Shown here piece by piece: positions 43,717 through 56,299 of a DNA stretch of 64,000 nt. Position 1 is the stretch's first letter; each line of letters starts with the position of its first letter. Origin of the DNA: Bosea sp. NBC_00550 (lineage in GTDB: Bacteria; Pseudomonadota; Alphaproteobacteria; Rhizobiales; Beijerinckiaceae). The DNA lies in the NCBI RefSeq assembly GCF_026020075.1, contig NZ_CP102772.1, positions 2,666,001 through 2,730,000 on the forward strand, written 5' to 3'. Both the position numbers and the translations under genes were made by a program. Below the pieces are notes generated by a model. It worked only from the letters and a program-made list of their open reading frames with translations, did not search any database and was not told the origin of the DNA.

Positions 43717-44362
43717 GCTGCAAAAGCATAGATCAGATCGACATCGCCCTCGACCACCAAGAACTCATCGCTGGTCGCCAAGCGCGCGCCATGGCCCGGA
43801 GAGCCGCCCTGCAGTGAGGGGATGCCGAGGACCTTGGCGAAATGCGCCCAAGGGCCGCCGAAACCCTGCACCGGATCGTGCGGGGGCAGTCATAGGCATC
43901 GAGCGTCGCCAGCGTGGCGCGGATCAGGCTGGATTCGACAGAGGTCTCATACCAGTCATAGGCCGCCATCACCCTGATCGCAATGTCCAGGACACCGGCC
44001 AAATCGAGATGGCGGCGGATGATCGCGATGATGTCCTGCGCGCCAACCTCGCTGATCACGCGCAGATCGCAAGTCGCGGTCGCCGTGTCGGGCAGCAGGA
44101 AGGACTTGGTGCCAGGCCCGGTATAGCCGCTGCGCAATCCGCTGATGTTGAAGGAGGCGCCATACATGTAGCGTTGCAGCAGATCGGCTGGCGCCATCTC
44201 CTCTTTGAAAGCCTCGAACGGGAATTGCGGCGCCAGCCCGGGGATGAAGCCGTTGGGATCCTTGCCGGCAACGCCCGAGCGCATCGCGTCGAACAGCGGG
44301 CGTTCCCAGTCGGCGATCGGCTTCTCCTGCGCCATCAGGGCGGCGAGTTCGGGGATGGCTAA
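43717..44362 (-). pseudogene. M20-family peptidase/amidase, C-terminal fragment with frameshift
   Basis: The readable part shows FNISGLRSGYTGPGTKSFLL and TATCDLRVISEVGAQDIIA, which is the dimerisation-domain region of M20 hydrolases. Near 43880 the frame shifts, and the end reads HDPVQGFGGPWAHFAKVLGI, then GSPGHGARLATSDEFLVVEG. The N-terminal metal-binding half is missing. Joined directly to a fragment of a different gene. Confidence 0.82.
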
Positions 44363-44382
44363 TCCGGCCGCTGTCGTCGGTC

Positions 44383-44582
44383 ACGTCTTCGGCGGTGAAG
44401 TCGGAGCCGTCATGGAACTTGACGCCCTTGCGCAGCTTGAACTCCCAGGTCGTGGCATCGATGGCCTTCCACGACTCGGCCAGATTGGGCTCGACCTGCA
44501 GTTTCTCGTTCGAGCGCACCAGCGTGTCGAAGATGTGCTTGAGCGCCTCGACATGGACGCCCAGCGCGCTCCCAACCGTGCA
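44383..44582 (-). pseudogene. Family-5 solute-binding protein, internal fragment
   Basis: About 65 residues only: HVEALKHIFDTLVRSNEKLQ, PNLAESWKAIDATTWEFKLR and GVKFHDGSDFTAEDV. This is the conserved N-terminal third of a DppA-like protein. Both ends are missing; it is joined to the M20 fragment on one side and to a plus-strand fragment on the other. Confidence 0.85.
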
Positions 44583-44969
44583 AGACCGATCGCACCAAGC
44601 AAGCGGCCGTTCCCCACGATCATCCCCGGATTGCTGGCAAAGGGCGGAAAGCCGGTCAGGGCGGTGGGCGTCATGGGTGGCCAATACCAGGCGACCGGAC
44701 ATTTGCAGATTCTGACCGGGCTGCTCGATCGCGGCCTCGATAACCAGCAGGCGTCGGACGCGCCGCGCTGCTTCGTCTTCGATGGCAATCTGTCGCTGGA
44801 GCCGACGATTTCAGCTACCGTCGCCGATGATCTGGCGGCACGCGGTCATCGTACCGTCTGGGCAGACGAGCCGCTCGGCGGTTGCCAGATCGTTTATGTC
44901 GACCACGACCGGGGCGTCATGTACGGCGCCTCCGATCATCGCAAGGACGGAATTGCGCTCGCCGCCTGA
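44583..44969 (+). pseudogene. Gamma-glutamyltransferase/HpxW-like Ntn hydrolase, 3' fragment
   Basis: The C-terminal part is readable: KRPFPTIIPGLLAKGGKPV, VGVMGGQYQATGHLQILTGL, PLGGCQIVYVDHDRGVMYG and ASDHRKDGIALAA, then stop. The front of the gene, including the autoprocessing Thr site, is gone. HpxW (oxamate amidohydrolase) belongs to this family and typically neighbours HpxZ, the very next gene here, so an hpxW remnant is the best reading. Confidence 0.8.
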
Positions 44970-45389: not shown

Positions 45390-46169
45390 TCAGCCGCTGC
45401 GAGCGACCCAGCCAAGTAGGTTCAGCCACATCGTCCGGAACATCGGTGCCTGCAGGAAGTCGTTCGGCAGCCAATGCGGTCCGATATCCGTCGTCCAAGC
45501 CGCGCTGCGCCCCTTGCCGGCCGTGCCGCAGACGAGCAGCGGATGGCCGCCCTCCTCCTCCGGCATGCTCAGCAAGACGTCGGCCCCCGGCCTGGCCATG
45601 ACCTCGTTGATGCCGAGGATGTAGGGGAGCGATCCGCCAAGGCCAGCCATGACTGGGTGACTCTGCGCCGACGCTGTCGCGACGGGTTCGATGCCCTCGG
45701 GCATCTCGATGCGGTCGTCATAGGGGTGCATCGTCACGGGCAGCACCGCCTCCACCGGCGTCTTGCAGTAGCGCGCCGCGCCGTTGATGCCCTGGAAGCT
45801 GTAGTAGCCGCCGACCATGATAAGGCCGCCCCCGCCGAGCACATAGTCGCGGATCGCCTTCAGCCGGTTGGGGAAGCGCTTCGACTGGATCCAGACTGCA
45901 GGCGGCAGCAACAGTGTGTTGGCGCCGATGTCGCTGAGGATTATCGCGTCGTATTGCGCCAGTTCCTCGGCGCTTGTTGGGAAGCTCTCGGCCGCCTCAT
46001 GGCAGAGCATATAGGTGAAATCGAAGTTCGGGCCGGCCAGCACCTTCAGGAAATCGTCGGCGCCGCGATGATGCGTCACCGAGGGGAACTGGTCCCAGCC
46101 CTTGATATGGGTCGCGGTCGAGGTCCAGCTCTCGCCGGCCAGCAGGATTTTCTTGGTCATGTCACTCAT
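45390..46169 (-). CDS. Putative glutamine amidotransferase-like protein (GATase1-like)
   Basis: 259 aa with an alpha/beta flavodoxin-like arrangement: ILLAGESWTSTATHIKGWD, YDAIILSDIGANTLLLPP and GGGGLIMVGGYYSFQGI, ending WTTDIGPHWLPNDF. It matches the family of putative glutamine amidotransferases. No glutaminase-type nucleophile Cys context (GxCxG) is seen, so it may not be a true amidotransferase. Start 46169 (MSDMTKK) or 46160 (MTKK, GAGG 10 nt upstream). Follows the binding-protein gene after a stem-loop. Confidence 0.7.
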   Translation of the reverse strand: MSDMTKKILLAGESWTSTATHIKGWDQFPSVTHHRGADDFLKVLAGPNFDFTYMLCHEAAESFPTSAEELAQYDAIILSDIGANTLLLPPAVWIQSKRFPNRLKAIRDYVLGGGGLIMVGGYYSFQGINGAARYCKTPVEAVLPVTMHPYDDRIEMPEGIEPVATASAQSHPVMAGLGGSLPYILGINEVMARPGADVLLSMPEEEGGHPLLVCGTAGKGRSAAWTTDIGPHWLPNDFLQAPMFRTMWLNLLGWVARSG

Positions 46170-46177
46170 GCCTCGTC

Positions 46178-46199
46178 GTGCCGGATAAGCCGCCGGCAC
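46178..46199 (-). promoter_or_regulatory. Intercistronic stem-loop after the binding-protein gene
   Basis: GTGCCGG, 8-nt loop, CCGGCAC: 7-bp stem between the binding-protein stop (46231) and the GATase1-like start. No T-run. Same position relative to a family-5 binding-protein gene as at 15830 and 22951. Confidence 0.5.
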
Positions 46200-46230
46200 A
46201 GGGCCGGCAGCGACCAAGCCGGTGCCGCGC

Positions 46231-47742
46231 TCAGGAAAGCTTGGCGAACTGGAGCTGGAAATTGCCGTCCGGGTACTGCACCCAGTCGAGCGCCTTGACG
46301 GAGGCCTGCAGCGTCGCCGGGAACGCGAGGAACAGCATCGGCGCATCCTGCGCGATGAGGTTCTGCGCCTCGCGGTAGATCTTGGCGCGCTCCGCTTCGA
46401 CCGTCAGTGCGCGGGCCTGTTCGAGAAGCTGCGTAACCTTGTCGCTGTGGTAGCCCGCGAAATTGTTCGGGCCGGTCTTTGTGAAGTAGTTAAACATGTT
46501 GCCGTCCGGATCGGTCCGGCCCGACCATGGCGACATGCACAGGTCGAAATCCTTCTGCCTGAGCACCGTGATGAGGCTGGTGGAATCGATCTGCTTGATC
46601 TCAACCTTGAAGCCGGCCTGATTGGCCTGCGCCTGCAGGATCTCCGCGGTGCGGACCTGCGCCGGGGAGTTCGTCACGGTGATCGAGACCGGCACGGGTC
46701 CGCTGATGTTAGCCTCGGCCAGCAGCTTCTTCGCCGCATCGCTGCCGGGCTTATAGGGTGCGAAGGCAGGATCATAGGCCCAGCCGATCGAGGGAGGGAT
46801 CGCGCCATAAGCGACGTTGCCGGTGCCGAAATAGACCGCGCGCAGTACAGTCTGCGGATCGATCGCGGTCACGAAGGCGCGCCGCACGGCCGGATTGTCG
46901 AAGGGTGCGCGCGTGCAGTTGAGCGAGAACGCGTTGAAGCCCAGGCCCGGCGACTGTTTCAGCGTGACACTGGCCTCGCGCGACAATTGAGCAACCGCCT
47001 GCGCCGGCACGCCATCGACGAGCTGGATCGTGCCCGAGCGCAAATTGGCAAGCCGCACCGTCTCGTCGGGGATCGGGCGGAAAACCAGCCGCTCGATCGA
47101 GGCCGGGCCGCGCCAGTAGCCGGCGAAGCGCTCCAGCACCAGCTCGGAATTCTTAGTCCAGGACACGAATTTGTAGGGGCCGGCACCGACCGCCTTTGCG
47201 GAGAAATCAGCGCCGAGCGCCTTCACCGCCGTCGGCGAGACCATCATGCCCGCGCGGACCGCGACAACCTGCAGGAACGGCGCATAGGGCACCTTGAGCT
47301 TGATCGTGAAGCTCTGCGGCCCGGCTATTTCGATCGTGTCGATCGGCCCGAGTTCGGTCCGGCGCGGCGAGGCGGTCGCCGGGTCGAGCATGCGCTCGAA
47401 ATTCGCCTTCACCGCCGCGGCGTCGAGCGCCGTGCCGTCATGGAAGGTCAAGCCCGGCTTCAGAGTGAAGCGGTAGGCCACGGGGTCGACCTGCTCGGCG
47501 CTGGCGAGGCCGGGCTCGATCTTCATGTCCGGCGTCATGTGCAGCAGCGGCTCGTGCAGGTTGAACGCCACGGCTAGTTCGAAGAACGAGGCCATCAGCG
47601 CCGGGTCGAGCGTCACCGGGTCGGAGACCACGCCGATCGTCAGCGTGCGCGGGCTCTGGGCAAAACCAAGCCCCGACGAGAGCGCGGCGGGCGTGGCCGC
47701 AAGCGAAGCGATCAGGGCGCGGCGGGAAAGTGTGGTCGTCAT
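46231..47742 (-). CDS. ABC transporter substrate-binding protein, family 5
   Basis: 503 aa, starting MTTTLSRRALIASLAATPAA at 47742 with AGAGGA upstream, which gives a Tat-type signal (SRRAL). Standard features: VSDPVTLDPALMASFF, LTFHDGTALDAAAVKANF, VGAGPYKFVSWTKNSEL, FSLNCTRAPFDNPAVRRAF. It is third in the operon after DppB and DppC. Ligand unknown; the divergent kinase operon suggests a sugar- or nucleoside-like compound (inference). Confidence 0.88.
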   Translation of the reverse strand: MTTTLSRRALIASLAATPAALSSGLGFAQSPRTLTIGVVSDPVTLDPALMASFFELAVAFNLHEPLLHMTPDMKIEPGLASAEQVDPVAYRFTLKPGLTFHDGTALDAAAVKANFERMLDPATASPRRTELGPIDTIEIAGPQSFTIKLKVPYAPFLQVVAVRAGMMVSPTAVKALGADFSAKAVGAGPYKFVSWTKNSELVLERFAGYWRGPASIERLVFRPIPDETVRLANLRSGTIQLVDGVPAQAVAQLSREASVTLKQSPGLGFNAFSLNCTRAPFDNPAVRRAFVTAIDPQTVLRAVYFGTGNVAYGAIPPSIGWAYDPAFAPYKPGSDAAKKLLAEANISGPVPVSITVTNSPAQVRTAEILQAQANQAGFKVEIKQIDSTSLITVLRQKDFDLCMSPWSGRTDPDGNMFNYFTKTGPNNFAGYHSDKVTQLLEQARALTVEAERAKIYREAQNLIAQDAPMLFLAFPATLQASVKALDWVQYPDGNFQLQFAKLS

Positions 47743-47798: not shown

Positions 47799-48671
47799 CT
47801 AGGTCGGCCCTGCGTCGCGCGGGTCGAGTTTGTCCCTCAGCCCGTCGCCCAGCAGGTTGAAGCCGAGCACGATCAGGAAGATCGCCAGACCCGGGAAACA
47901 GGCCAGCCACGGCGCCAGATCGAGGAAGCCGATGGCATTGCGTAACATGTTTCCCCAGGTCGGCGTCGGCGGCTGAACGCCGAGCCCCAGGAACGAGAGA
48001 TAGGCTTCGGTGATGATCGCTGAGGCGAAGAGCAGCGAGCCCTGCACGATGACCGGCGTCATGATGTTGGGCAGGATGGTGCGGAACAGAATTCGCGCCG
48101 TGCCCGCGCCGAGCGCCCGGCTGGCCTCGACGAAATCGAGCCGGGCGACGATCAGCGTCTGCGCCCGCGCGATCCGGGCGAAGACGGGCAGATTGACCAC
48201 CGCGATCGCAAGCACGGCATTGGTCAGGCTCGGGCCGAGCACGGCGGTGATGGCCAGGGCGAGCAGAATGCTCGGAAACGCGAAGATCACGTCCATCACG
48301 CGCATCATCAGCGCATCGATCCATCCGCCGAAGAAGCCGGCGACGAGCCCTGTTGCCGTCCCCAGGATGAACGCCGCGGCGACGCTGAGCACGCCGACGA
48401 GGATCGACGCGCGCGCGCCATAGATGACGCGCGAGAAGGTATCGCGTCCGAGATCGTCGGTGCCGAAGAGATGCTCGGCCGAGGGCGGCGAGAGCGTCGC
48501 GATGAAGTCGGGAATGTTGGGGTCATGCGTCGCGATCAGCGGCGCAGCGAGCGCCATCACCAAGGCGAGCCCGACGAGCACGACCCCCGTGGCAGAACGC
48601 GGATCGGCGACAAGCTTTCTCGCCAGCCCGCGCGGCGTGGACGTAAGCACCAGGGTGGGCGCCTGGCTCAA
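47799..48671 (-). CDS. ABC transporter permease, DppC type
   Basis: 290 aa from a TTG start at 48671 overlapping the DppB stop (TTGA). The frame is open further upstream but only inside the DppB gene. LFGTDDLGRDTFSRVIYG, EAA-like ALGAGTARILFRTILPN, and C-terminus GDGLRDKLDPRDAG. No ATPase gene is present in this operon. Confidence 0.88.
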   Translation of the reverse strand: MSQAPTLVLTSTPRGLARKLVADPRSATGVVLVGLALVMALAAPLIATHDPNIPDFIATLSPPSAEHLFGTDDLGRDTFSRVIYGARASILVGVLSVAAAFILGTATGLVAGFFGGWIDALMMRVMDVIFAFPSILLALAITAVLGPSLTNAVLAIAVVNLPVFARIARAQTLIVARLDFVEASRALGAGTARILFRTILPNIMTPVIVQGSLLFASAIITEAYLSFLGLGVQPPTPTWGNMLRNAIGFLDLAPWLACFPGLAIFLIVLGFNLLGDGLRDKLDPRDAGPT

Positions 48672-49609
48672 CTGACCCTCACGCGCGGATCGACCAGCGT
48701 GTAGATCAGGTCGGTGATGAAGTTGATCAGCACGAACAGCACGGCGGTCAGCAGCACGGCGCCCTGCACCACGGGATAGTCGCGGGCGAAGATAGCATCG
48801 ACGGTCAGCTTGCCGATGCCGGGCCAGGAGAAAACCGTCTCGGTGATCACGACGCCGCCGAGCAGTTGGCCGATCTGGATGCCGATCAGAGTGATGATCG
48901 GGATCTGCGCGTTCGGCAGGGCATGGCCCAGCACAACGGCGGATTCGGCCAGTCCCTTGGCCTTTGCGGTGCGGACATAGTCGCTGCGCAGCACCTCGAG
49001 CATCGTCGCCCGCGTCATGCGCATCGTGGCGGCGGCGAGCGCCGCACCCAGCGTCAGCGCCGGCAGCACAAGATGTCGCAGGAAGTCGCCTGGCGCTGCC
49101 AGCGGCGAGGCGTAGCCCGATGACGGCAGGATCGGCAGCCAGATCGACAGGCAAAGGATCAGCAGGATACCCAGCCAAAAACTCGGCATCGAGAGCCCGC
49201 AAAGCGCCAATAGGGAGGCCAGATAATCGCTGGCGCTGTTGCGCCTCGTGGCGGCAATGATGCCTGCCGGCAGCGCGATCGCCAGCGAGATCAGCACCGC
49301 GGCAAAGGCAAGAAGCGCGGTCGGGCCAAGCGCTCCGATCATCAGGGGGAACACCTCGCGCCCGCCCTGGATCGAGCGCCCGAAATCGCCGGTGACGACG
49401 TTGCCGAGCCAAGAGAGGTACTGAACCACGAGCGGCTGGTCGAGCGCGAGCTTCTGCCTGAGCGCGGCGATAGCCGCCGCGTCCGCCTCGAGTCCGAGCA
49501 GCGCCAGCGCCGGGTCGCCGGGCACGAGCCTGATTAGGAAAAACGACACCAGCGACGTCCCGAACAGGACTGGCAACAGGCTGAGCAGACGCGTCAGGAC
49601 AACGAACAT
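48668..49609 (-). CDS. ABC transporter permease, DppB type
   Basis: 313 aa. N-terminus MFVVLTRLLSLLPVLFGTSL, EAA-like region (AKGLAESAVVLGHALPNAQI) and C-terminus DLIYTLVDPRVRVS. First gene of the operon. Its ATG lies 17 bp from the LacI-type palindrome, so the operator probably overlaps the promoter or transcript start. Confidence 0.9.
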   Translation of the reverse strand: MFVVLTRLLSLLPVLFGTSLVSFFLIRLVPGDPALALLGLEADAAAIAALRQKLALDQPLVVQYLSWLGNVVTGDFGRSIQGGREVFPLMIGALGPTALLAFAAVLISLAIALPAGIIAATRRNSASDYLASLLALCGLSMPSFWLGILLILCLSIWLPILPSSGYASPLAAPGDFLRHLVLPALTLGAALAAATMRMTRATMLEVLRSDYVRTAKAKGLAESAVVLGHALPNAQIPIITLIGIQIGQLLGGVVITETVFSWPGIGKLTVDAIFARDYPVVQGAVLLTAVLFVLINFITDLIYTLVDPRVRVS

Positions 49610-49626: not shown

Positions 49627-49642
49627 ATTGAACCGGTTCAAT
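49627..49642. promoter_or_regulatory. LacI-type operator: perfect 16-bp palindrome
   Basis: ATTGAACCGGTTCAAT, a perfect palindrome with the central CG step typical of LacI-family operators, in the 145-bp divergent region. It is 17 bp from the DppB start and 112 bp from the start of the LacI-HTH::kinase gene. The encoded HTH is the obvious binder. It is seen directly; binding is inferred. Confidence 0.75.
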
Positions 49643-49754
49643 CGGCGTGATACTTCCCGCCGACCATGCATCTGTCAATGATTGCGTCCATGCAGGTTTC
49701 GCGCCGCCCCATGCATCGGGGCGGGTTGCCCATGGCTGACGGTGGCTGGGCCAC

Positions 49755-50984
49755 ATGAGCAACGAGAGCGCTTCGGGACGCCAGCGCAATGCCACGATCG
49801 ACCACGTCGCGCAGAGTGCCGGTGTGTCGAAGGGAACGGTCTCGAACGTGATCAACGGTCGGGTCCCGGTTGCTCCGGAGACGCGGCGCAAGGTCGAGCG
49901 TGCGATCGCCGATCTCGGCTTCCATCCGGCGGAATCGGCGCGCGCCCTGACCTCTCGCAAACGCATGACCGATCCCGATGCCAGGCTCGATGCCGGCGTT
50001 CCGCGCCTGACCACGGTCGGCTATGTCAGCGTCGATTATTTCGCCTGCCTCGACCGGCTGCCGCAGCGGGAGGAACGGCGCCTGTCGCGTGCGATCATTA
50101 AGTCGATCGGCGGACCGGCGGCCAATGTCGCCGCCATCGCCGCTAATCTCGCCGCGCCCTTCCCCATAGCGGCCTCGCTGATCACCGCGATCGGCGTCGA
50201 CCAGGAGAGCGACTGGGCGGCGGCCGAGCTGGCCGACCGCCGCGTCGATTTGATCGTCCCGCCCGATCGCCGGGCCGGCCGTCTGGTCCGCGCCATCGTG
50301 ATGGTCGAGGCCGACGGCAGACGCACCATCATCAACGAGCCGTCGCGCCTGGCCGAGGTCGATGTCCAGCGCTTCATCGAGGCGACCGACCCCGCCGGCA
50401 TGCGCTGGTGCCTGCATCTCGAAGGCTATCAGGTGCCGCGCCAGATCGGCATGATGGCCGCTGCCCGCGCGCGCGGCTTCCGAACCAGCATGCAGGCGAC
50501 GGGGCTTGCCACGGATTGGCTTGCGCAACATGCCGTGACGATCTTCGCAGCCTTCGACGTCGTCGTCCTGCATCGCGAATCCCTCGCATTCATTCCCGGC
50601 TGCCCGATAGAGCCGGAGGCGGGGCTAAGCCATCTCGCCGACCGCGCGACAAAAGCCGATCTCTGGCCGGAGATCGTCGTCATCACGCTCGGTTCCGACG
50701 GTGCGGCGATCCTGACGCGCGACGGGCGGATCGATCGCGTGACGGCCATCACCGTTCCCGTCGTCGATACGACCGGCGCCGGCGACGCCTTCGTCGGCGT
50801 ATTCCTGGCCGCCTGGCTGAATGGCGTTTCGCCACGCGAGGCCGGCAGCCTCGCCTGCGTCGCCGGCAGTCTCGCCGTGACGCGCTTCGGCGCCCAGGAG
50901 ATACGACCCACGGCCGGCGATCTGATCAGCCGCGCCGGCGATCCCGCCCTTTTGCCATTACATCTGCAAGAAATCGGAGCATAG
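49755..50984 (+). CDS. LacI-type HTH fused to PfkB-family sugar kinase
   Basis: 409 aa. Residues 12-70 are a complete LacI DNA-binding headpiece (ATIDHVAQSAGVSKGTVSNV, hinge-like SARALTSRKR). From about residue 84 the protein is a PfkB/ribokinase-type kinase: VGYVSVDYFACLDRLP, IIKSIGGPAANVAAIAANLA (signature 1) and VVDTTGAGDAFVGVFLAAWL (signature 2, catalytic D344). The usual periplasmic-binding-like sensor domain of LacI is absent. The kinase domain may therefore act as the sensor, with substrate or ATP controlling DNA binding, or the protein may be a bifunctional kinase and repressor. First gene of a three-gene operon with a BtpA-like protein and a ribokinase. Confidence 0.9.
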   Translation: MSNESASGRQRNATIDHVAQSAGVSKGTVSNVINGRVPVAPETRRKVERAIADLGFHPAESARALTSRKRMTDPDARLDAGVPRLTTVGYVSVDYFACLDRLPQREERRLSRAIIKSIGGPAANVAAIAANLAAPFPIAASLITAIGVDQESDWAAAELADRRVDLIVPPDRRAGRLVRAIVMVEADGRRTIINEPSRLAEVDVQRFIEATDPAGMRWCLHLEGYQVPRQIGMMAAARARGFRTSMQATGLATDWLAQHAVTIFAAFDVVVLHRESLAFIPGCPIEPEAGLSHLADRATKADLWPEIVVITLGSDGAAILTRDGRIDRVTAITVPVVDTTGAGDAFVGVFLAAWLNGVSPREAGSLACVAGSLAVTRFGAQEIRPTAGDLISRAGDPALLPLHLQEIGA

Positions 50985-50987
50985 GCT

Positions 50988-51842
50988 GTGTCGCGGTCGA
51001 TCTATCGTGAGAAGCAGAACGCGATCCAGCGCCTGTTCGGGCGGCGAAAAGCTGTCATCGGCGTGATTCATTCGCTTCCACTTCCGGGCTCGCCGCATTA
51101 CGACGGCGATCCGATCGAGCGCATCTACGCCCACGCGGAGGCCGAGGCGCTGCGTTATCGCGATGGCGGCGTCGATGGGCTGATCGTCGAGAACCATGGC
51201 GACATCCCCTTCGCCAAGCCCGACGAACTCGGCCCCGAAACGGCTGCGACCATGGCTGTGATGAGCCATCGCGTCGTGCAAGTGAGCCGATTGCCGATCG
51301 GCATCAACGTGTTGGCCAATGGCGCCATCCAGGCGTTGGCCGTGGCCAAGGCGTCGGGCGCTGCCTTCGTCCGCGTCAACCAATGGGCCAACGCCTATGT
51401 GGCCAATGAGGGCTTCATGGAGGGCAAGGCCGGGGAGGCGAGCCGCTACCGCGCCTGGCTGCGGGCAAGGGATGTCGCGATCTTCAGCGACGTACAGGTC
51501 AAGCACGGCGCCCACGCCATCACGGCCGACAGGACGCTCGAAGAGCTGACCCGCGACAGCGAGTTCTTCGACGCCGACGCCGTCATCGTCACCGGCCAGC
51601 GCACCGGCGACAGCGCGAAACTCGATCAACTCGAGACCGTCCGCAACGCTACGAAGCTGCCGGTCCTGGTCGGCAGCGGCGTGACGACCGAGAATGTCGA
51701 GGCGATCTTCGGTTTCGCCGACGCGGTCATCGTCGCCAGCTCGCTGAAGCATGAAGGCGGGTGGTGGAACGAGGTCGATCCCGAGCGCGTCACTCATTTC
51801 ATGGCGGTGGTCGGTAAGATTCGCGCGAAAGGTGGCGCGTGA
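50988..51842 (+). CDS. BtpA/SgcQ family TIM-barrel protein
   Basis: 284 aa with a GTG start 3 nt after the kinase stop. KAVIGVIHSLPLPGSPHYDG, RDGGVDGLIVENHGDIPFAK, FVRVNQWANAYVANEGFMEG and LPVLVGSGVTTENVEAIFGF are hallmark segments of the family. Biochemical role is not settled: cyanobacterial BtpA is linked to photosystem I biogenesis, and E. coli SgcQ lies in a sugar operon. Its place between two PfkB kinases suggests it acts on a phosphorylated sugar or nucleoside (inference). Ends overlapping the next gene (GTGA). Confidence 0.87.
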   Translation: MSRSIYREKQNAIQRLFGRRKAVIGVIHSLPLPGSPHYDGDPIERIYAHAEAEALRYRDGGVDGLIVENHGDIPFAKPDELGPETAATMAVMSHRVVQVSRLPIGINVLANGAIQALAVAKASGAAFVRVNQWANAYVANEGFMEGKAGEASRYRAWLRARDVAIFSDVQVKHGAHAITADRTLEELTRDSEFFDADAVIVTGQRTGDSAKLDQLETVRNATKLPVLVGSGVTTENVEAIFGFADAVIVASSLKHEGGWWNEVDPERVTHFMAVVGKIRAKGGA

Positions 51843-52735
51843 ACCGCGTCCTCGTCATCGGCAACGCGACCGTCGATCTGATCCTGTCGGTCGCAGAGCT
51901 ACCAGCGCCGGGCGAGACGGTGCTTGCCGATCAAGCCTTTCGCTGCCCGGGCGGCAAGGGCTTGAACCAAGCTCTTGCGGCGAGCCGCCTGGGCGTCTCG
52001 ACAACGCTCGTCGCCTCCATCGGAGACGACCAGGACGGGCGGTTCCTCGATGCCGCATTGGCCGGCGAGTTGCTCGCGGTCGAGTGGGTGGCGTCTACGC
52101 ACCCGACGGACCTGTCAATCGTCTCGATTGCGGCGAGCGGCGAGAACGCCATCGTCAGCACGGCCGCGAGTGCGCGATCCTTGGCGCCGGAATCGGCCGA
52201 AGCCGCGGCCTCTACCCTGGGCCCCGGCGATGTGCTTCTCCTGCAAGGCAATCTCGGGGAGGCCACGACCCATGCCGCGCATCGGGCTGCACGGGCGGCA
52301 GGTGCGCGAACCATCTTCAACACCGCGCCGATCGCCTGGGATCAGCGGGAACTCGCGAGCCAGGTCGACATCGTCGTGGCCAATGCCGGCGAAGTGGAAC
52401 GACTGACATCCCTGAGAAACGAGGCGGCGGCACTGCGGCTTATCGAGGCAGGCGCGGGAACCGTTATCGTGACGCGAGGAGCCTATCACGCCATTCTTGC
52501 CGATCGATCGGGCGTAAGACTGTTTCCGATCGGACCAGTCGGGGTGGTCGATACCTCAGGTGCCGGCGACGTCACGGTCGGAATCCTGGCTGCAGGACTG
52601 GTCTGCGGCCTGGCGATCGACAAGGCTTTAGATGTCGCCCTCACCGCTGCCTCGCTCTCGGTAACGCGGCACGGAACCAGCGCATCTTTCCCGACAGCAG
52701 CGGAGCTCTCGCAGCTTCTCCTCGGCACAGGCTGA
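51839..52735 (+). CDS. Ribokinase-like PfkB-family carbohydrate kinase
   Basis: 298 aa from GTG 51839. VLVIGNATVDLILSVAELPA, signature 1 FRCPGGKGLNQALAASRLG and signature 2 VVDTSGAGDVTVGILAAGL with the catalytic Asp. Closest in layout to ribokinases. With the fused kinase at 49755 it gives two PfkB kinases in one operon, perhaps for two phosphorylation steps or two substrates. Confidence 0.9.
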   Translation: MNRVLVIGNATVDLILSVAELPAPGETVLADQAFRCPGGKGLNQALAASRLGVSTTLVASIGDDQDGRFLDAALAGELLAVEWVASTHPTDLSIVSIAASGENAIVSTAASARSLAPESAEAAASTLGPGDVLLLQGNLGEATTHAAHRAARAAGARTIFNTAPIAWDQRELASQVDIVVANAGEVERLTSLRNEAAALRLIEAGAGTVIVTRGAYHAILADRSGVRLFPIGPVGVVDTSGAGDVTVGILAAGLVCGLAIDKALDVALTAASLSVTRHGTSASFPTAAELSQLLLGTG

Positions 52736-54839: not shown

Positions 54840-54872
54840 GTGATTCACTCCTCTGCGCTGGGGAGGGGCGGG

Positions 54873-55740
54873 ATGCGCGGGACGGACGAGAGGACAGGGG
54901 CGCTTTTCAGCTACGTGGACCTGGAGGCCCGGGTGCCGGCGGGTCATCCGCTTCGGGCGATCCGGTCGCTGGTGAACGAGGCTCTTTCGGCGATGGGGAG
55001 CGACCTCTCGGCGCTCTATTCGGGCCTCGGCCGACCGTCGATCGCGCCGGAGAAGCTGCTGCGTGCGATGCTGCTGCAGGCCTTCTACTCGATCCGCTCT
55101 GAGCGCCAGCTGATGGAGCGGCTGGAGTTCGATCTCCTGTTTCGCTGGTTCGTCGGGCTCGGCATCGACGACGCGGTCTGGGATCACTCGACGTTCTCGA
55201 AGAACCGCGACCGGCTGCTTGCCGGCGACGTCGCCGCGCAGTTCCTGTCGGCCTTGCTGGCGGGGCGCCGTGTGAAACGGCTCCTGTCGAGCGAGCACTT
55301 CAGCGTCGACGGCACGCTGATCCAGGCGTGGGCGTCGATGAAGAGCTTCAGACCGGTCGAAGAGCCTGGAAGAGGCTCCGGCCCGAACGAGCCGCCGCCG
55401 GCGTCGGGCGGGCGCAACGCCGAGGCCGGCTTCCGGGGCGAGAAGCGTTCGAACGCGACCCACGCCTCGACCACCGACCCGGACGCAAAGCTCTATCGCA
55501 AGGGGCCCGGCATGGCGGCGCGGCTCGCCTTCCTCGGCCATGCCCTGATGGAGAACCGCTCCGGCCTCATCGTCGATGCCTGCTTGACGAAGGTGTCGGG
55601 CCATGCCGAGCGGGTCGCGGCTCTGGCGATGATCGAACCGTATGCCGACCGGCCGCGGCCCATCACGCTCGGGGCCGACCGCGGCTATGACGCGGCCGAC
55701 TTCGTGAACGAGCTGCGTTCGATGAACGTGCGCCCGCAGC
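54873..55740 (+). pseudogene. IS5-family transposase, 3'-truncated
   Basis: Starts MRGTDERTGALFSYVDLEAR with GGGGAGGGG upstream. The N-terminal domain (RSLVNEALSAMGSDLSALYS, SIRSERQLMERLEFDLLFRW, DHSTFSKNRDRLL) and two catalytic Asp regions (HFSVDGTLIQAWASMKSF, ITLGADRGYDAADFVNELR) are present. Just after NELRSMNVRPQ the frame runs into an inverted IS6-type fragment, so the catalytic Glu region is lost and the protein cannot be active. Confidence 0.85.
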
Positions 55741-55946
55741 CGGCGCAGGTTGCGGGCATAGCTGCAGCCAAATTTGAGGACCCATCGCCGGATCGTCTCG
55801 TACGAAATGTCGAGGCCGCGCTCCGCCAGCAACTCCTCGACATCGCGATAGCTCAAGGTGAACCGCAGATAGAGCCACACGGCGTGCCGGATGATCTCGG
55901 GAGGGAATTGCTGACGGGCGCAGGAAATCGGCTGCATGCCCCCCAC
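55731..55946 (-). pseudogene. IS6-type transposase N-terminal fragment
   Basis: 72 codons only, antisense to the IS5 fragment: QFPPEIIRHAVWLYLRFTLS, RDVEELLAERGLDISYETIR, RWVLKFGCSYARNLRRLR. Related to the N-terminal half at 34902 but clearly a different element, and different from the 19462/25804 pair. Cut off where it meets the IS5 gene. Confidence 0.82.
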
Positions 55947-56299
55947 CCTAACCGGCGAGGCTCAATTCGCCCATTCCCCTGACAATGTCTTGGCGCCGCT
56001 TCTGTCGCCCTATCCGTTCACCTCGAGCGGCCGGCAACCTCGCTCCCCCCTTGGAGAGCGCTACGGATCGGCACGCGTACCAATCGGCGACGGCGCATTT
56101 CTCCAAGCCAACTTCTTTAACGGCATTCGCCAGTCGGCCATGCGCATCGCTGAAATCGTGCAGCCGGAAGGCGGACCTTCCTAGCGTCGGGAAAGGGCAG
56201 CTCCGGCCGCCAGGTACCACACACCCAGCCGGCGCCCGGAACAGACGTTCCAGAAGTCGGCTGGGGGCCAAAAACGCCGGATCTGTCAGGCACGAAGTG
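55947..56299. other. Intergenic region, IS6 end and unassigned sequence
   Basis: 353 bp. The beginning is probably the outer end of the IS6-type fragment. Minus-strand open frames show no recognisable domain. No gene called. Confidence 0.4.

Follow-up and report, generated by a model that had tools for sequence, protein, structure and literature searches.

The locus described here raises the question of whether a LacI-type repressor can be built around an active kinase as its allosteric core. To our knowledge, few enzymes double as regulators, and the route from catalysis to DNA is often unclear. In the window, by which we mean the whole stretch of 64,000 nucleotides that was analyzed, a compact, conserved protein unites two well-understood modules, a LacI headpiece and a ribokinase, and has a predicted operator; this makes the question directly testable. 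The protein and its parts are as follows (coordinates are those of the window).

49755..50984, plus strand: LacI headpiece-PfkB kinase fusion of 409 amino acids (ORF open throughout; Pfam)
49794..49928, plus strand: LacI-type HTH, residues 14-58 (Pfam PF00356, conserved recognition helix)
49929..49964, plus strand: hinge-helix segment, residues 59-70 (conservation of R63, low pN/pS)
50007..50912, plus strand: PfkB/ribokinase domain, residues 85-386 (Pfam PF00294)

The original prediction had described a complete LacI headpiece (residues 12-70) fused to a complete PfkB kinase with its signatures and the catalytic D344, the usual LacI sensor being missing, and each part of this description was borne out. 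The HTH scored 50.6 bits against a Pfam cut-off of 27 and is followed by A62-R63-A64-L65, which matches the A-R-x-L hinge motif that stands after the HTH in the LacI/GalR family. The kinase part scored 126.3 bits against a cut-off of 25.8 and displays the fold of PfkB/ribokinase proteins, their glycine-rich substrate motif and DTxGAGD with the catalytic Asp (D344, within DTTGAGD; codon 50784-50786). Structure comparison aligned residues 80-397 of the modeled fusion with PfkB kinases; the hinge segment 59-70 had low confidence in the structure model, which was built without DNA. Pfam detected no periplasmic-binding-like effector domain in the fusion, PfkB being the sole match after the headpiece, and no ROK domain at E-values up to 0.001, the region being occupied by PfkB. 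None of the 25 NCBIfam rows listed attained its cut-off for this protein.

A search of protein databases for the combination of HTH_LacI and PfkB had been proposed together with the prediction, and it revealed that the protein belongs to a family. Both domains were present in 117 of the best 120 of 586 matches when the window protein was the query, in 118 of the best 120 of 200 matches with a distant member from Roseivivax, and in 116 of the best 120 of 2258 matches with the kinase part alone; the exceptions (3, 2 and 4 proteins, respectively) lacked the LacI match only. The result obtained with the kinase part alone indicates that, within the range listed, this kinase subfamily is nearly always fused. 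Since the homologues listed share the architecture, an artefact of frameshift or ORF choice was discarded as an explanation. At least 235 of the protein clusters listed carry both domains, and their annotation would be corrected: among the matches listed, most named clusters go under "ribokinase", "sugar kinase" or "PfkB family carbohydrate kinase", and two names mention LacI.

The named sources of the fusion included Bosea, Bradyrhizobium, Alsobacter, Salinarimonas, Jiella, Rhizobium, Mesorhizobium, Aureimonas, Skermanella, Thalassospira, Oceaniglobus and Maribius, all of them Alphaproteobacteria; one fusion-bearing MAG was labeled Variovorax, a genus outside this class. In a tree that carries a long-branch warning and in which the placement of the outgroup is unsure, 29 fused kinases fell on one side of a branch with a support of 99/99, separated from 6 free-standing kinases. 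Distances between the headpieces and between the kinases of 41 proteins were correlated (Mantel r 0.78, with none of 2000 permutations as high), as expected for a single fusion inherited as a unit. The idea that the fusion kinase is a direct duplicate of the neighboring kinase was unsupported, the two matching at 28% and standing apart in the tree (outgroup unsure).

The distribution of the fusion is patchy. Within the window's family it was found in at least 4 of 199 genomes (E 1e-60), within the order in at least 4 of 397 (E 1e-70) and within the class in at least 1 of 385, with the own genome counted each time, as well as in at least 2 of 28 and at least 5 of 247 genomes of two further families; these are lower bounds, as part of the candidates per genome were scored. 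A DUF772/DDE transposase is encoded about 2 kb past the fusion operon (54840-55982, plus strand), in agreement with the patchy distribution. In Rhizobium etli 8C-3 (L054:6888-7811), the fusion operon is carried by a plasmid typed as conjugative, and both a Kiwa KwaB-like gene and a type I restriction-modification cluster lie close by.

We consider it on balance probable that the protein is a bifunctional molecule, auto-repressor and sugar kinase in one, induced by a ligand in the kinase pocket. In an alignment of 129 rows, some of them near-duplicates, D94, G119 and G120 are invariant (129/129), the hinge residue R63 is kept in 128 rows and D344 is an Asp in 127, the remaining two having one Gly and one gap. 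The catalytic Asp and GAGD are nearly invariant even in rows just 34% identical to the window protein. This conservation of the active site suggests that catalysis is likely, and it argues against a different reading, which we hold to be rather unlikely, that the kinase-like part is a ligand sensor only (with or without ATP) and has no useful catalysis, a free-standing kinase being the pathway enzyme.

The choice between these two readings also depends on the neighboring genes, which in the window are the following.

50988..51842, plus strand: BtpA/SgcQ family protein (Pfam PF03437, 1.8e-75)
51839..52735, plus strand: second, free-standing PfkB (ribokinase-like) kinase (Pfam PF00294)
48668..49609, minus strand: DppB-like ABC permease (PF00528)
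47799..48674, minus strand: DppC-like ABC permease (PF00528)
46231..47730, minus strand: family 5 solute-binding protein (PF00496)
45390..46346, minus strand: GATase1_like protein, given as the ORF (PF07090, 2e-100, residues 66-315)

The free-standing kinase scored 199.9 bits against the ribokinase model, below its cut-off of 299.65, and the true start of the GATase1_like gene is probably nearer 46170. Overlapping ORFs at 43733-44702 (minus strand), one corresponding to the first 56 positions of PF00496 and the other having no Pfam match, look like the remains of a broken gene.

Altogether 17 fusion loci were read: the window, L009, L010, L050, L051 and L052 (clade A), L053, L054, L064, L065 and L075 (clade B1), L066, L072, L073, L074 and L076 (clade B2), and L055 (clade C). 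Some are close kin, the fusions of L054 and L075 being 92% identical. The clade A loci have the BtpA/SgcQ protein and the second PfkB kinase downstream of the fusion in 6/6 cases, and the divergent DppB-like gene adjoins the fusion in 4/6 (window, L009, L010, L051); this gene lies beyond ABC-ATPase ORFs in L052, and L050 is cut by the contig end. Downstream of the clade B1 fusion come a sugar-type ABC transporter and, also in 5/5 loci, an M20 peptidase-like protein, with a GATase1_like protein in 4/5, and a second PfkB was not found in any of the five fetched stretches (E 1e-8). In clade B2, the fusion has a related ABC transporter downstream in 5/5 loci, together with a second PfkB-like gene; these second kinases were identified by blastp and one of the five was confirmed by Pfam. 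The single clade C operon contains a sugar ABC transporter and a ribokinase-like gene, and a BtpA gene is near; no BtpA/SgcQ gene was found in the 10 clade B loci (E 1e-8). The constant theme of the shared cluster is thus a transporter plus the fusion, and the enzymes differ.

The presence of a second kinase in the operons of clades A (6/6), B2 (5/5) and C (1/1) means that in those clades the pathway may not depend on the fused kinase as its enzyme, which leaves room for a role as a sensor only. A precedent for such a role is BzdR, in which a kinase-like domain binds benzoyl-CoA (PMC3602430). The B1 loci speak against it: as no second PfkB was found in the stretches fetched, no candidate kinase is left there but the fused one.

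The following element is a candidate target of the headpiece.

49627..49642, no strand assigned: putative operator, 16-bp palindrome ATTGAACCGGTTCAAT, between the divergent dppB-like gene and the fusion

Operators of the LacI/GalR family are palindromes with a central CG. The 16-bp palindrome had been singled out in the original prediction, and comparison of the loci supports its operator-like character: the pattern TTGAAnCGnTTCAA occurs at the promoter of the fusion cluster in 15 of 16 testable loci, L050 having been left out of the count because its contig starts too near the gene. The sole exception, L055 from Roseivivax, has no TTGAA-type site and is the sole locus read from a Roseobacter-type branch in which the HTH is kept and the hinge A-R-x-L is replaced, e.g. 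by GFVFPA (L055, P0123, P0125, P0127, P0131, P0133, P0135, P0139, P0144, P0152 and P0161). The same pattern was absent from 36 control loci (L011-L046; 481,243 b), which comprise other kinases and weak matches, not screened for headpieces of their own and unmatched in base composition; the looser TTGAAN4TTCAA had 2 matches in them. Five clade A loci share two invariant stretches, the 15-bp run ATTGAACCGGTTCAA and, upstream of this run toward the dpp genes, CATTGACA, in a region with a mean column identity of 69%. The fusion of L052 starts about 2.2 kb from the site, behind ABC-ATPase ORFs, and the site stays at the divergent promoter, indicating that the palindrome goes with the operon and does not follow the start of the fusion gene.

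The number of sites in the genome was dropped as evidence. The exact sequence TTGAANCGNTTCAA occurs once in the own genome, at the window site, and the reversed control pattern also occurs once, so that the single site is significant by its place and conservation and not by number. Likewise, a search of the window for the 16-bp sequence with up to 3 mismatches gave one match (the exact one) against 0.15 expected, and is weak taken alone, since 15 of 100 shuffles had a match. Across the 16 non-window neighborhoods (284,931 b, L050 and L055 included), every pattern match but one was the promoter site. The exception is an exact TTGAACCGGTTCAA at L010:2136 (Bosea sp. CRIB-10), with an amidase gene (PF01425) and a further PfkB gene nearby; this site is possibly a second regulon target. 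In the window, an AtzH-like protein (PF11533; 44997-45380, plus strand) adjoins the cluster; taken with the L010 amidase and with the GATase1_like and M20 proteins elsewhere, it hints that the substrate may be an amide- or amine-linked sugar.

The recognition helix varies in a way that may reflect the sites. Position 27 is Gly in 114/129 rows and position 31 is Asn or His in 126/129. Position 26 is Lys in 120/129 rows (mainly clade A), and Val, Ile, Leu or Met in all 24 of the 41 compared proteins that came from the second search, with the Roseivivax query. Just 5' of the central CG, the clade A sites have C and the clade B sites have A, G or C. This pattern, in small numbers, would fit a contact in which residue 26 reads the base 5' of the central CG. 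A matching site at the cluster promoter in nearly all of the relatives that were read suggests that the enzyme itself probably switches its own genes.

Two promoter candidates were placed in the window.

49650..49678, minus strand: possible dpp-like promoter, TTGACA (49673-49678), 17 bp, AAGTAT (49650-49655), assigned by eye
49628..49656, plus strand: possible fusion promoter, TTGAAC inside the operator, 17 bp, TACTTC, a weak candidate matching 6/12 consensus positions

All promoter assignments are consensus readings, made partly by eye and partly with a script that scores agreement with the consensus without a shuffled control; clade A pairs on the fusion side match 6 or 7 of 12 positions. 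The dpp-side TTGACA is invariant in five clade A loci, and its pair was not the one chosen by the script; in the four loci scanned, the script gave no standard pair for the dpp side save in L010 (other pairs only), and none in L052. It is possible that the operator would cover the start point of the dpp-side promoter. In clade B, 4 of the 5 loci scanned have a pair of the TTGACG-17-TACCGT type, and the script found none in L066. The -10-like hexamer starts 5 or 7 bases before the site and therefore abuts it or overlaps it by one base, so that the transcription start point would fall within the site. Repression of both promoters by one dimer would agree with where the sites lie and with the divergent arrangement of the genes.

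We judge it improbable that the headpiece regulates with another sign or signal, either because the phosphorylated product or the ADP state is the effector, or because the protein is an activator, or through looping in clade B. Two-site DNA looping is known for LacI, and a second palindrome, TTGAAN5TTCAA, lies upstream of the proximal site in 10/10 clade B loci and is absent from the control loci; in five aligned B1 loci both sites are conserved blocks in a region with a mean column identity of 58%. The centers of the two sites are 84.5-95.5 bp apart in the five B2 loci (8.05-9.1 turns at 10.5) and 131.5-135.5 bp apart in the five B1 loci (12.52-12.9 turns). The latter set is, however, out of phase, and the clade A loci scanned, including the window, have a single site within 600 bases. 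The proximal sites are placed where a repressor would sit.

Constraint on the protein was estimated from pN/pS values (uncorrected) between the window fusion and four clade A relatives. The headpiece gave 0.19-0.53, the hinge 0-0.28 and the kinase 0.34-0.46, compared with 0.39-0.94 in the linker, 0.73-1.05 over residues 1-12 and 0.75-1.02 in the tail; against L051 and L052 the headpiece value was 0.53, slightly above that of the kinase (0.46 and 0.43). The headpiece and the hinge are therefore constrained about as strongly as the kinase, and the linker less so. This two-part constraint and the conserved operator footprint leave very little probability to the reading that the headpiece is non-functional or untranslated and that the working kinase begins at an internal start, even though a Met stands at residue 71 of the window protein, directly after the hinge, and the functional form of Salmonella RikA was suggested to begin at Met90, its authors not ruling out the long form (PMC13432705).

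For the combined repressor and kinase, which we favor, the following course can be proposed. A dimer of the fusion would bind the TTGAAnCGnTTCAA operator and block both divergent promoters, that of its own operon (fusion, BtpA-like protein and second kinase) and that of the transporter operon. As there is no other effector domain, it must be the kinase domain that reads the ligand: an imported sugar-like compound and ATP would fill the ribokinase-type pocket, and movements of the lid and dimer, passed to the hinge, would free the headpieces from the DNA. Ribokinases close their lid, which is also the dimer interface, over sugar and nucleotide. In the structure model the headpiece enters the kinase at the first strand, beside the strands presumed to form the lid, and closure of the lid could thus separate the hinges. 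The same active site would phosphorylate the compound, so that the repressor would use up its own inducer, and repression would return once the substrate is spent; self-limiting induction could follow. A more far-reaching version is put forward as a tentative speculation: the fusions may be widespread alphaproteobacterial one-protein switches in which an active ribokinase-type enzyme replaced the LacI sensor, its catalytic cycle (apo, sugar-ATP, product) would set operator occupancy, and transcription of the transporter and pathway would track turnover and not ligand level, with two-operator looping in the Rhizobium-type branch.

The original prediction had left room for the fusion to be a known, well-described regulator family, and the answer is divided: the HTH-PfkB kind is known from YeiI and RikA, and the LacI-headed form was not found described. 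The papers listed from the open-access literature, most subscription journals being outside its scope, included no recognizable description of a LacI-PfkB protein, and a term search of a comparative genomics study of LacI-family regulons (PMC4052901) found no pfkB, ribokinase or kinase domain. A LacI-type head with its operator on a PfkB kinase thus appears to be undescribed.

The fusion resembles the LacI/GalR repressors in its headpiece, hinge motif and putative palindromic operator, but a kinase takes the place of their periplasmic-binding-like effector domain. ROK regulators and NadR also combine an HTH with a domain related to sugar or nucleotide kinases, from other HTH and kinase families. 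BzdR, an XRE HTH joined to a shikimate-kinase-like domain with undetectable kinase activity (PMC3602430), is similar in that a kinase fold is the effector domain of a repressor, whereas its HTH and kinase folds are unrelated to those of the window fusion, in which the active-site residues are kept. In E. coli YeiI (b2160), too, an N-terminal HTH is joined straight to a whole PfkB kinase; according to Pfam, however, its HTH is the HTH_24 winged helix and that of the window fusion is of the LacI type. RikA (STM3547) of Salmonella likewise has a predicted HTH, of the DeoR type, and a PfkB kinase of the ribokinase type with demonstrated kinase activity, and it supports growth on ribose without the HTH part (PMC13432705). 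As RikA is the most similar of the characterized proteins, this growth weighs against the favored reading. Its HTH is perhaps outside the functional form, whereas in the window fusion the LacI HTH and the operator are conserved. The fusion shares with YeiI and RikA the N-terminal HTH and the whole PfkB kinase, and not the winged or DeoR-type HTH. As these two are already HTH-PfkB fusions, the new part is the LacI-type head.
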